From Oceanomicrobium pacificus (GTDB lineage: Bacteria > Pseudomonadota > Alphaproteobacteria > Rhodobacterales > Rhodobacteraceae), in the NCBI RefSeq assembly GCF_009833495.1, contig NZ_WUWG01000003.1:744001-808000 (forward strand): a DNA stretch of 64,000 nucleotides, in the 5' to 3' direction. Positions 31,908-34,866 of the stretch are shown in pieces. A program made the position numbers and the translations under genes. The notes under the pieces are model-generated. The model had not been told where the DNA came from and ran no database searches. It saw only the letters and a list, made by a program, of their open reading frames with translations. Each line of letters begins with the position of its first letter. Position 1 is the first letter of the stretch.

Positions 31908-31919
31908 CCAAAAGAAAAC

Positions 31920-31943
31920 GCCCCGGCCACGAGGGGCCGGGGC
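31920..31943 (-). terminator. terminator of the peptide-binding protein gene
   Basis: A 9-bp GC stem (GCCCCGGCC 31920-31928 with GGCCGGGGC 31935-31943) is followed on the minus strand by TTTTCTTTT (plus 31911-31919). It sits 25 bases after the minus-strand stop at 31969 and 13 bases after the LysE stop, so it may also stop plus-strand transcription, though without a U-run. Confidence 0.85.
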
Positions 31944-31968
31944 GCTCGTCATCAGGCCTCGCGGAGGC

Positions 31969-33765
31969 TTATTCCTCGTTCCACCAGACATCGGGCAGGA
32001 AGCCGATCCAGTCGCCGTAAATCGGCAGTGTCTCGGGGTATTTCAGCCGGCTTGCATGGGCCAGTCGGCTCACGTCGGAGAACCAGAACGGCACCACGTA
32101 GCGCCCGGATGTCAGCACACGGTCGAGTGCCTTCGTGGCGGCCACGAAATCCTCCTGGCTTTCGGCCGACAGCATCGCGTCGATCATCGCATCCGCCGCC
32201 GGGCTGTTCACGCCCATATAGTTGCGCGTCCCCGGCTCGGTGACACCGTTGCTGCCCCAGTAGAAGCGCTGCTCGTTGCCCGGCGACAGCGACAGGCCCC
32301 AGCGGTTGACCATCATGTCATAGTCATATTCGGTCGCCCGCGCCTTGTGCTGTGCGCTGTCCACCAGTTCGATGCCGGGTGTGATGCCAAGCTGCTTGAG
32401 CGCATCGAACCACATGTTGGCAAGACCTTCATCACGGTTCGATTTGAGCATGATCTCGAAGGTGAACGGGTTGCCGTCTGCGTCTTTCAGTTCGCCATCC
32501 TGAATGGTCCAGCCGGCGGCTTCCAGTTGCTGGCGCGCCGCGCGCAGGTTCGAGCGGTTCCGCTCGCTCCCGTCGGACACCGGCAATGCGTAGCCGTCAA
32601 TGGCACCGGGCAGAAGCTCGTCTGCAAAGGGGGCGAGCAGTTCCGCGACCTTGCCTTCGGCGGGTTCACCGACGGCCATGCCGAGCGGCGAGTTGGCGAA
32701 GTAGCTGGTGCGGCGCGGATAGACGCCATTGTTCAGCGCCTGGTTGATGAACTCAAAGTTGAACGCGTGCAGGAGCGCGTCACGCACCCGCCAATCCTCG
32801 AAGATCGGACGGCGTGTGTTGAAGACGAACCCTTCCATGCCCGCCGGGCGCTGGTGCGGAATGACGGATTTCGTCACCTCGCCGCTGGTCACGAGCGGGA
32901 AGTCATACTCGTTCTCCCATTTGACCGGATCGCCCTCGCGGAAGACGGACGTCTCCCCAGCCGTGAAGGATTGCCAGACGACGCCCGCATCGCCGTAGAA
33001 TTCGTAGCGGATCTCGTCGAGATTGTTCCGCCCCTTGTTGAAGGGCAGGTCCTTGCCCCAATAGTCGGGGTTGCGCACGAAGGAGATATAGCGCCCCGCC
33101 TCGAAATCTCCGACCGTGTAAGGGCCTGTGGCGGTGGGCACATCAAGCGTGCTTTCGGCAAAATCGCGGCCTTCCCAGTCGGACTGTTTCAGGATCGGGC
33201 GCAGGCCGAGGATGAGCGGCAGTTCGAAATCAACCGTGTTGAAGGTGAACCGCACCCCGCGCTCGCCGACACGCTCGACCGTCTCCACCTTCTTCCAGCT
33301 GTTGCCGAAACTCGGCAGGCCTTTCTCGGCGAGGATCTCGAACGACCAGATCACGTCATCGACCGTGACCGGGCTGCCGTCGGAAAAGGCGGCCTCGGGA
33401 CGCAGATGAAACTCGACCCATTCGCGGTTCGGGCCGGTCTCCACCGATTCGGCGAGCAGCCCGTAGAGGGTGAAGGACTCGTCCCAGCTGCGGCCAAGCA
33501 GCGATTCGAACACATGCGCCCGTAGCCCCCAGGGCGACCGGCCTTTCAGGATGTAGGGGTTGAACGCATCGAAGCCGCCCGACTCGCCAAAGACGATCCG
33601 GCCCCCTTTCGGCGCGTCCGGATTGACATAGGGCAGTTCGGTAAAGTCCGGACCAAGGGCCGGCTCGCCATACATAGCGATGCCATGCTGTGGCTCGGCA
33701 TACGCTATATGTGCCATCGTGCCCAAGGAGAGGGCCAGCCCTAGTGCGATCCTGTGCGGTTTCAT
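31969..33765 (-). CDS. ABC transporter substrate-binding protein, family 5 (YejA-like)
   Basis: Family 5 binding proteins capture oligopeptides or related solutes in the periplasm. The 598-residue precursor has a signal peptide (MKPHRIALGLALSLGTMAHIAYA, cut near residue 23) and then HGIAMYGEPALGPDFTELPYVNPDAPKGG, the front typical of YejA-type proteins. Later blocks WSFEILAEKG, GPYTVGDFEAGRYISFVRNPDYWGKDLPFNKGRNN and the C-terminal substrate lobe fit the family. No permease or ATPase gene lies next to it, so it must work with a transporter encoded elsewhere. It is followed by a strong terminator and preceded by a candidate promoter. Confidence 0.92.
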   Translation of the reverse strand: MKPHRIALGLALSLGTMAHIAYAEPQHGIAMYGEPALGPDFTELPYVNPDAPKGGRIVFGESGGFDAFNPYILKGRSPWGLRAHVFESLLGRSWDESFTLYGLLAESVETGPNREWVEFHLRPEAAFSDGSPVTVDDVIWSFEILAEKGLPSFGNSWKKVETVERVGERGVRFTFNTVDFELPLILGLRPILKQSDWEGRDFAESTLDVPTATGPYTVGDFEAGRYISFVRNPDYWGKDLPFNKGRNNLDEIRYEFYGDAGVVWQSFTAGETSVFREGDPVKWENEYDFPLVTSGEVTKSVIPHQRPAGMEGFVFNTRRPIFEDWRVRDALLHAFNFEFINQALNNGVYPRRTSYFANSPLGMAVGEPAEGKVAELLAPFADELLPGAIDGYALPVSDGSERNRSNLRAARQQLEAAGWTIQDGELKDADGNPFTFEIMLKSNRDEGLANMWFDALKQLGITPGIELVDSAQHKARATEYDYDMMVNRWGLSLSPGNEQRFYWGSNGVTEPGTRNYMGVNSPAADAMIDAMLSAESQEDFVAATKALDRVLTSGRYVVPFWFSDVSRLAHASRLKYPETLPIYGDWIGFLPDVWWNEE

Positions 33766-33807
33766 CTGCTCAACCTTTTGATTTGTGAATCGTTTCTCGG
33801 TGGTGCG

Positions 33808-33835
33808 AGTTTACCGCTGCCCGAGGAGTGATCAA
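33808..33835 (-). promoter_or_regulatory. candidate promoter of the YejA-like gene
   Basis: On the minus strand TTGATC (33830-33835) and TAAACT (33808-33813) lie 16 bases apart, about 45 bases before the ATG at 33765. The AGGTTGAG sequence between it and the start may be a weak ribosome site. Confidence 0.45.
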
Positions 33836-33843
33836 AATTTATC

Positions 33844-33872
33844 TTGGAGTCTGAGCCGGCATTTTGTATAAA
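33844..33872 (+). promoter_or_regulatory. candidate promoter of an orphan small RNA
   Basis: TTGGAG (33844-33849) and TATAAA (33867-33872) are separated by 17 bases on the plus strand, in a 315-base region with no protein gene. It points at a hairpin-terminated stretch that begins about 7 bases later. Confidence 0.5.
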
Positions 33873-33878
33873 GGGGGC

Positions 33879-33955
33879 ACTGCTCGATAGGTTTCTTGCC
33901 TGTATGAAACCTGCCTCAATAACTTAACGCCCTCCTTGCGAGGGCGTTTTTTTTG
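33879..33955 (+). ncRNA. candidate trans-acting small RNA, about 75 nt
   Basis: Downstream of the 33844-33872 promoter lies a stretch with two hairpins. The first is AGGTTTC/GAAACCT (33889-33895 with 33906-33912, 10-base loop). The second is a terminator, ACGCCCTC/GAGGGCGT (33927-33934 with 33940-33947), followed by eight T (33947-33954). No reading frame of note fits, and the terminator serves no plus-strand gene. The terminator arm and loop contain CCTCCTT, complementary to Shine-Dalgarno sequences, as in several alphaproteobacterial sRNAs. The rest of the 33766-34080 gap holds flanking promoters only. Confidence 0.55.
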
Positions 33956-33997
33956 GTTGTTTCTCCGGCAGTTTTTCCGATCTGTGCATCCGCACAA

Positions 33998-34026
33998 TTG
34001 AACTTCGCACCTGCAATACATACGGT
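33998..34026 (+). promoter_or_regulatory. possible bdhA promoter
   Basis: TTGAAC (33998-34003) and TACGGT (34021-34026) are 17 bases apart, downstream of the sRNA terminator and about 55 bases before the hydroxybutyrate dehydrogenase ATG. The -10 match is weak. Confidence 0.3.
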
Positions 34027-34080
34027 CCTGAGCAGAATTCCGCCGCCACCCGCGACGGAGAAGGAACAGGGAGCGTCCTC

Positions 34081-34866
34081 ATGGCACTTGCAGGCAAAAC
34101 CGCCATCATCACCGGATCGAACTCGGGAATCGGACTGGGCATCGCAGAGGTGCTCGTGCGCGAGGGCGCGCATGTCATCCTCAACAGTTTCACCGACCGG
34201 GAGGAGGATCACGCCCTCGCCGCCAAGATCGCGGACGGTCAGCCGGGCAGCGCCGAATATCGCCAGGCCGACATGTCGGACGGCGATGCCTGCCGTGCGC
34301 TCGTCGACGGGGTGGCGAAGGATCGCGGCACGGTAGACATCCTGATCAACAATGCCGGCATCCAGCATGTGGCTGCGATCGAGGAGTTCCCGCAGGACAG
34401 CTGGAACCGGATCATCGCGATCAACATGAACTCCGCCTATCACACGACCGCACGGGCCGTGCCGGTGATGCGGGAAAACGGCTGGGGCCGGATCATCAAT
34501 GTCGCCTCCGTGCACGGGCTGCGGGCCTCGCCCTTCAAATCGGCCTATGTGGCGGCGAAACATGGCGTGGTGGGGATGAGCAAGGTCGTGGCGCTGGAAA
34601 CCGCCGAGGATCCGATCACCTGCAACGCGATCTGCCCGGGTTATGTGCTGACACCGCTCGTCGAGGCACAGATCCCCGATACGATGGAGAAATATGGCAT
34701 GGACCGCGATACGGTGGTGCGCGAGGTGATGCTGCAACGCCAGCCGTCGCGGGAATTTGCCACGACCGAACAGATCGGCGGCACCGCGGCCTTCCTCTGC
34801 TCGGACGCCGCCGCGCAGATCACAGGCACGACCATTTCGGTTGATGGCGGCTGGAGCGCGATGTAG
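34081..34866 (+). CDS. bdhA: 3-hydroxybutyrate dehydrogenase (SDR)
   Basis: The enzyme interconverts 3-hydroxybutyrate and acetoacetate with NAD, linking polyhydroxybutyrate breakdown to central metabolism. The 261-residue short-chain dehydrogenase has TGSNSGIG (11-18), NNAG (90-93) and the catalytic Ser143-Tyr156-Lys160. The NAICPGYVLTPLVEAQIPD block (182-200) distinguishes hydroxybutyrate dehydrogenases from other SDRs. It ends DGGWSAM as expected. No other PHB gene is adjacent. A perfect hairpin follows the stop. Confidence 0.9.
   Translation: MALAGKTAIITGSNSGIGLGIAEVLVREGAHVILNSFTDREEDHALAAKIADGQPGSAEYRQADMSDGDACRALVDGVAKDRGTVDILINNAGIQHVAAIEEFPQDSWNRIIAINMNSAYHTTARAVPVMRENGWGRIINVASVHGLRASPFKSAYVAAKHGVVGMSKVVALETAEDPITCNAICPGYVLTPLVEAQIPDTMEKYGMDRDTVVREVMLQRQPSREFATTEQIGGTAAFLCSDAAAQITGTTISVDGGWSAM

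Follow-up and report, generated by a model that had tools for sequence, protein, structure and literature searches.

In the window, the 64,000-nucleotide stretch of the Oceanomicrobium pacificus genome analysed here, two divergent protein genes enclose a gap in which a short RNA gene is predicted (Table 1). The gap without protein genes, the TTGGAG and TATAAA boxes with their 17-base spacer, the first hairpin, and the terminator hairpin with its run of eight T had all been pointed out in an earlier note, and all of them are found where it placed them. The first hairpin has 7 pairs, as the note claimed, or 8 pairs when its closing U-G pair is counted. Two T of the terminal run lie inside stem pairs of the terminator.

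Table 1. Features of the predicted sRNA locus and its flanking genes
Feature	Position	Strand	Details
YejA-like substrate-binding protein gene (SBP_bac_5), divergent	31969..33765	-	Pfam PF00496, E 6e-63
Intergenic gap	33766-34080		315 bases between flanking genes
A/T-rich element, directly 5' of -35	33832..33842	+	Family consensus TTTTCAAACTTTTAG
-35 element CTTGGAG	33843..33849	+	Includes TTGGAG at 33844-33849
-10 element TATAAA	33867..33872	+	17-base spacer after -35
Predicted sRNA, about 76 nt	33879..33954	+	Predicted 5' end A33879
Nearly invariant 40-nt core ACTGCTCGATAGGTTTCTTGCCTGTATGAAACCTGCCTCA	33879..33918	+	Core pattern search in family genomes
First hairpin	33888..33913	+	Stem 33888-33895 / 33906-33913, arms TAGGTTTC/GAAACCTG
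First-hairpin loop UUGCCUGUAU	33896-33905	+	From folds of the RNA
Candidate seed CCUGCCUC, complement GAGGCAGG	33910..33917	+	Unchanged in 16/16 full-length diverged members
Linker CCUCAAUAACUU	33914..33925	+	Unpaired in most folds
Intrinsic terminator	33926..33954	+	Stem 33926-33948, 9 pairs; T8 33947-33954
CCTCCTT in terminator	33931-33937	+	Four of seven bases in stem; non-conserved
3-hydroxybutyrate dehydrogenase gene, same strand as sRNA	34081..34866	+	TIGR01963 above cut-off

The predicted 76-nt transcript has a folding z-score of -4.2 against shuffles, and its best fold contains the first hairpin described in the earlier note. For the 83-nt stretch at 33876-33958 the z-score is -4.0 against dinucleotide shuffles; its best fold forms another pairing at the first hairpin by means of upstream bases without conservation in the family. 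A consensus promoter scan found 0 promoters at threshold, with 1.0 expected, and the two boxes scored below threshold. By themselves they are therefore unremarkable, and the comparison across the family decides. A strong intrinsic terminator-like site is also seen on the minus strand at 31916-31947, 3' of the YejA-like gene.

Distribution of the RNA and conservation of its core

A BLAST query of 126 bases gave matches in 36/37 genomes of the same family and in 0/24 genomes of other families of the class. In a wider draw with one genome per genus, the RNA was found in 385/394 family genomes, a count that takes in one genome (G156) with an E-value of only 0.0018, which the covariance model did not confirm, and another (G413) in which a contig end truncates the copy. 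Of the 347 family genomes with a completeness of 90% or more and a contamination of 5% or less, 346 gave BLAST matches. A query from Paracoccus sediminis matched 124/125 Paracoccus genomes. The covariance search in Rhodobacterales that the earlier note had proposed was carried out with a model built from 48 diverse members (alignment A1), and it matched every one of the 121 genomes sampled from the order (all of family f1). In a sample of 385 genomes of the class, the five family genomes listed have scores of 104 bits or more. The best match outside the family in this sample reaches 31.9 bits and covers little beyond the terminator; when the five best outside matches were aligned, scarcely more than the terminator was shared.

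The first 40 nt of the RNA form a nearly invariant core. At up to 3 mismatches it is present in 378/394 family genomes and in 340/347 of the high-quality subset, and the reversed pattern gave 0 matches in the 394 family genomes. Among 150 core matches listed, 147 are exact and the other three carry 1, 1 and 3 mismatches. Ruegeria pomeroyi, Paracoccus, Sulfitobacter, Leisingera and Neomegalonema are among the matches listed for an exact 39-mer; these loci, being chosen for an exact core, were excluded from the assessment of core conservation and included in the promoter, terminator and context counts. In a genome that we take, from its SorX neighbourhood, to be that of R. sphaeroides 2.4.1, the ortholog lies on chromosome 1 at about 1443995-1444072, minus strand. 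In the plasmid set, four Paracoccus replicons of 1.46-2.24 Mb carry the RNA, and in P. versutus, P. ferrooxidans and P. pantotrophus it lies on a replicon of that size. No copy was found in viral contigs (exact 26-mer) or phage records.

These findings imply that the locus is very probably a strikingly conserved sRNA gene, family-wide in Rhodobacterales as sampled. To our knowledge, bacterial sRNAs that occur almost throughout an order and hardly vary over half of their length are few, and an RNA of this kind would be expected to have many partners or an essential one. The window holds no Rfam 15 match at the gathering score, so that annotation relying on Rfam would miss the RNA. Additionally, a mini-ORF, ATGAAACC (MKPAS...), was considered as a coding product and rejected: among 161 unique members, 91 have a stop in its frame before the RNA ends, 68 read on into the terminator, and 2 have no such ATG. 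A frame so poorly kept indicates that the RNA is non-coding.

Promoter and terminator in the family

Conservation extends upstream of the core. In 185 unique upstream segments, numbered from the first C of the core (position 0), an exact CTTGG stands at -37 in 149 and an exact TATAA at -13 in 139. The A/T-rich element spans -52 to -39, and each column from -48 to -40 is 81-96% one base; the copy in the window departs from the family consensus at some positions. In most of the 185 segments the core starts 6-7 nt 3' of the conserved -10 box, with the -35 box at a fixed distance. The boxes would presumably fit the housekeeping sigma factor. TTG and TAT boxes are also the pattern given for RpoHI/RpoHII promoters in the part of PMC10673084 that was available, and these boxes are present in the sRNA promoter too.

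The terminator is supported by covariation. In alignment A1 (48 sequences), 6 of the 7 counted stem pairs are changed on both sides, and 43 cells show both-side changes vs 10.3 after shuffling. The 8 pairs of the first hairpin are invariant in the same 48 sequences, so covariation neither supports nor refutes this hairpin.

An orphan sRNA is expected to have its own promoter and its own Rho-independent terminator; the conserved predicted -35/-10 pair in the 185 upstream segments and the terminator described above provide both. Together with the nearly invariant core, they strongly support the earlier note's reading of the locus as an orphan sRNA. The note had also considered that the hairpin might end a longer transcript, running antisense to the YejA-like gene on the plus strand, in which case there would be no sRNA gene. 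The terminator is certainly present, as that explanation requires, but a conserved -10 box 6-7 nt before the core and a -35 box at a fixed distance in most segments leave it highly improbable.

Diverged members and the candidate pairing segment

Nineteen poor, missing or mismatched cases were collected as a diverged set. Seventeen have a match at E <= 0.01 (G156 and G178 are not among them), and one locus was aligned for each; one of these (L241) is cut by a contig end, leaving 16 full-length members. Among these 16 members the 5' tail and the loop are changed and GAAACCTGCCTC is constant. In one of them (L240) the 5' stem arm is changed as well, giving an A-C mismatch. GAAACCUGCCUC is the longest segment unchanged across the diverged members. 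Since GAAACCTGCCTC stays fixed while the tail, the loop and, in L240, the opposing stem arm change, its sequence is apparently used beyond the formation of the hairpin, and the segment seems to be constrained for sequence and not for the hairpin alone. The 3' part of the linker is variable in sequence and length among members, and in the fold of one member (L107) the linker region partly pairs with the 5' tail.

The earlier note had drawn attention to CCTCCTT in the terminator as an anti-Shine-Dalgarno arm. The motif does exist in the window. It occurs in 8/161 unique members, or in 7/174 unique segments in another count, and the commonest terminator arms in the family are GCCCGC, GCCGGC and GCCAGC. 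Because of this rarity the motif is rejected as a working part of the RNA. A function resembling anti-Shine-Dalgarno pairing may lie in the conserved CCUGCCUC instead.

Genomic neighbourhood

Three duplicate loci were removed before the neighbour genes were counted, and these counts include some genomes twice, from two collections (e.g. L006/L052). The YejA-like gene is divergent from the sRNA in 168/176 loci. Downstream, 130 of the 169 loci with enough flank have the dehydrogenase gene on the same strand at a distance of no more than 600 nt. Both neighbours occur together in 122/162 loci, and in some loci neither does. In P. ferrooxidans the RNA is flanked by genes for an ABC transporter substrate-binding protein and a 3-hydroxybutyrate dehydrogenase; the P. 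pantotrophus record is unannotated at the RNA locus.

The frequent company of the dehydrogenase gene raises the question of whether the RNA is a terminated 5' leader, or attenuator, of that gene, with the sRNA as the short RNA that it yields; UpsM stands in this relation to the dcw cluster. The 130 loci with the gene nearby on the same strand would agree with such a leader. Against it, 39/169 loci keep the RNA although no dehydrogenase gene follows on the same strand within 600 nt, and in three loci (L044, L098 and L136) the next mapped gene, which is LysE-like, is convergent. Retention of the RNA without a mapped co-directional neighbour indicates that it is more than a leader, and the orphan status proposed in the earlier note holds where the downstream gene is absent or convergent. 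Moreover, the conservation of the core exceeds the apparent needs of a leader, and no alternative pairing between core and terminator appeared in the folds made. We therefore regard the leader explanation as improbable.

The neighbouring genes were also considered as targets of the RNA and found to be unsupported, as pairing between the core and their leaders is barely above shuffles (about 0.2 of the shuffle standard deviation, which is 4.4-4.6 kcal/mol). The mean energy is -24.3 kcal/mol for YejA leaders (n=174; shuffled -23.5) and -25.7 kcal/mol for dehydrogenase leaders (n=149; shuffled -24.8). In R. sphaeroides GAGGCAGG is located 5' of the dehydrogenase gene, and it is found in just 1 of 143 unique dehydrogenase leaders, counted with gene starts set by a simple rule.

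Two further observations concern these regions. Leaders of YejA-like orthologs carry GGATTGTT directly before the start in 54/167 unique cases; the leader in the window differs. In R. sphaeroides an element, CATTCGCGAAGCGCG, stands behind the sRNA terminator on the opposite strand (L186/L197) and recurs elsewhere in the same genome (G075) at C4:2598411-2598444, C5:656492-656521 and C4:268164-268190. Three extra matches of the R. sphaeroides query consist of this element alone and are not copies of the sRNA.

Proposed mode of action

On the comparative evidence above, the locus very probably holds a genuine trans-sRNA gene. The reading that we prefer, and consider probable from sequence comparison, is that of an independently transcribed, intergenic, trans-acting sRNA that pairs with several mRNAs through its core. 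RNA polymerase would start at about 33879 from the conserved promoter and stop at the T8 terminator. The core, comprising the 5' tail, the loop UUGCCUGU and the stem arm/linker GAAACCUGCCUCAA, would be kept for base-pairing with several mRNAs, probably with the help of Hfq; the U-rich terminator tail is the sole feature of the RNA compatible with the Hfq-dependent class. The candidate seeds, loop UUGCCUGU and stem/linker CCUGCCUC, are complementary to ribosome-binding regions that contain AGGCA. The most likely outcome would be the masking of AGGCAG-type ribosome-binding regions, presumably leading to repression.

A protein site would equally explain why paired and unpaired positions alike are invariant. 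The RNA might thus bind a protein (RNA polymerase, or a CsrA-like or ProQ-like protein) or sponge another sRNA, with no mRNA pairing at all, and sponge sRNAs are reported in alphaproteobacteria, with CrfA as an example, in the available part of PMC12559287. However, the RNA matches no Rfam family at the gathering score, and by inspection its core has no G-rich stretch with which to sequester C-rich sRNAs. Action by protein binding or sponging is judged unlikely, and mRNA pairing through the core stays the preferred reading.

A candidate target: the cpaC-like pilus secretin gene

Candidate targets were sought by scanning 12 genomes for GAGGCAGG-N2-8-ATG. The pattern gave 214 matches vs 18 for the reversed control, an unfair control, GAGG being a ribosome-binding motif in its own right. 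Nine genomes were fully listed, with 144 sites, and 142 of these were examined; R. sphaeroides' own dehydrogenase site and G034:C2:6951 were left out. Clustering also took in 10 sites of three further genomes (six of 27 from G392 and two from each of the others). Among 79 frames of at least 60 codons, a pilus secretin-like family recurs in five genomes of five genera, and one other family recurs in two. The secretin sites are L281 in the window's genome, L299 in R. sphaeroides (G075), L270 (G116), L289 (G003) and L346 (G164). Under independence such a recurrence would have a probability of about 1e-8 over 4000 families, a figure to be read with the fact that leaders of relatives are not independent. 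In the window itself GAGGCAGG occurs 5 times against 3.55 expected, which is about chance.

The protein at L281 has a T2SS-T3SS_pil_N domain, and NCBIfam gives L270 secretin-family matches alone, below cut-off. We call the gene CpaC-like (Tad/Flp-type) on the basis of the domain and of Rhizobium hits annotated CpaC or having cpaB neighbours. The cpaC-like leaders share a conserved 10-mer, GAGAGGCAGG, which runs two bases past the complement of the seed. In Pseudorhodobacter turbinis the secretin gene, a close ortholog (56% identical) that was not chosen by the pattern, has GAAAGGCAGTGATATG, in which AGGCAG is kept and GAGGCAGG is absent. Six secretin genes on plasmids from other orders, and a remote copy on a Paracoccus plasmid, have neither AGGCAG nor GAGGCAGG; these seven genes are distant, three of them stand behind an annotated cpaB, and 8/187 records were examined in all. 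YejA leaders share GGATTGTT in 54/167 cases without a known sRNA reason, and hence the cpaC pattern is no proof of targeting.

In four of the five pattern-chosen leaders (L270, L281, L289 and L346, not L299), TTGATTCTTG is seen about 80-90 bases 5' of GAGAGGCAGG, and it is also located upstream of the start in the Pseudorhodobacter copy (L396). It is possibly a promoter or a regulator site.

From the leader patterns, the cpaC-like Tad/Flp pilus secretin gene is offered, as a hypothesis only, as a first target. A much broader proposal would make this near-universal Rhodobacterales sRNA a central post-transcriptional switch that represses translation of surface-attachment genes, cpaC first, by pairing of CCUGCCUC with GAGGCAGG at ribosome-binding sites, and so couples attachment to growth state in roseobacters and their relatives. 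We hold this proposal to be doubtful. If the cpaC target were true, its interest would come through the tad cluster, which marks putative diatom colonisers among Rhodobacterales according to the accessible part of PMC8383342.

Comparison with known sRNAs

In the article texts searched, no publication recognisable as describing this RNA was found, and a literal sequence search of them gave none. The available part of the R. pomeroyi study PMC4809877 contains no recognisable counterpart. A match by coordinates to a published R. sphaeroides or P. denitrificans sRNA was sought and not found; the matches listed for the 125 Paracoccus genomes include none at the published positions. As far as the accessible text of PMC5107571 goes, P. 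denitrificans 'Intergenic 134' and 'Intergenic 60' (84 and 80 nt) appear in an RT-PCR-confirmed table and are Rhodobacteraceae-wide, and 'Intergenic 134' has a gene context in common with a putative R. sphaeroides sRNA. It may be the RNA described here. Its number suggests a position on chromosome 2, which would fit the replicons that carry the RNA in P. versutus, P. ferrooxidans and P. pantotrophus. However, the same text reports 134 as similar to Streptomyces and Chloroflexus DNA and 60 as similar to Sphingomonadales DNA, and such similarities outside the order, compared by description, are a misfit with a family found here in Rhodobacterales only.

StsR (formerly RSs0827) of Rhodobacter sphaeroides is described, in the parts of PMC8307010 and PMC8625941 available, as a 72-nt orphan sRNA under RpoHI/RpoHII. 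The RNA resembles it as an orphan sRNA of a Rhodobacterales member and in its TTG and TAT boxes of the RpoHI/RpoHII type. Identity with StsR was rejected, as the probe GGACAGTGAAGGTAGAACGG, taken from the accessible part of PMC11354728, is by inspection absent from the RNA and from its R. sphaeroides ortholog. In the R. sphaeroides sRNA list, 38/79 are orphan (available part of PMC8625941). Published work on this species uses both sRNA deletion and Northern blotting (PMC11354728, same part), so the function of the RNA is directly testable through its ortholog there.

A terminated leader of the UpsM type was rejected in view of the 39/169 loci in which no same-strand dehydrogenase gene follows within 600 nt. 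CcsR1-4 and 'cuckoo'-type sRNAs have CUCCUCCC loops. Like them, the RNA is an alphaproteobacterial sRNA with C-rich segments resembling an anti-Shine-Dalgarno sequence; unlike them, its conserved part has no CUCCUCCC, and CCTCCTT is just a terminator variant.

Membership of the alphaR8/MmgR family (RF00519, suhB) was also considered and rejected, since the window scores 20.4 bits against a gathering score of 41 bits. RF00519 scores of 23-28 bits, in a range where chance matches are frequent, occur at the RNA loci of several relatives. An asX2 match on the minus strand of the window was likewise observed (27.9 bits, E 0.0014, gathering score 70). The genome of the window has a separate RF00519 match of 54.9 bits, outside the window (G000 C1:1223275-1223346, minus strand). 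The RNA is similar to alphaR8/MmgR/SisA-D in its size, its one 5' hairpin, its C/U-rich linker and its terminator, but it differs from them in having its own core sequence and a separate locus in the same genome.
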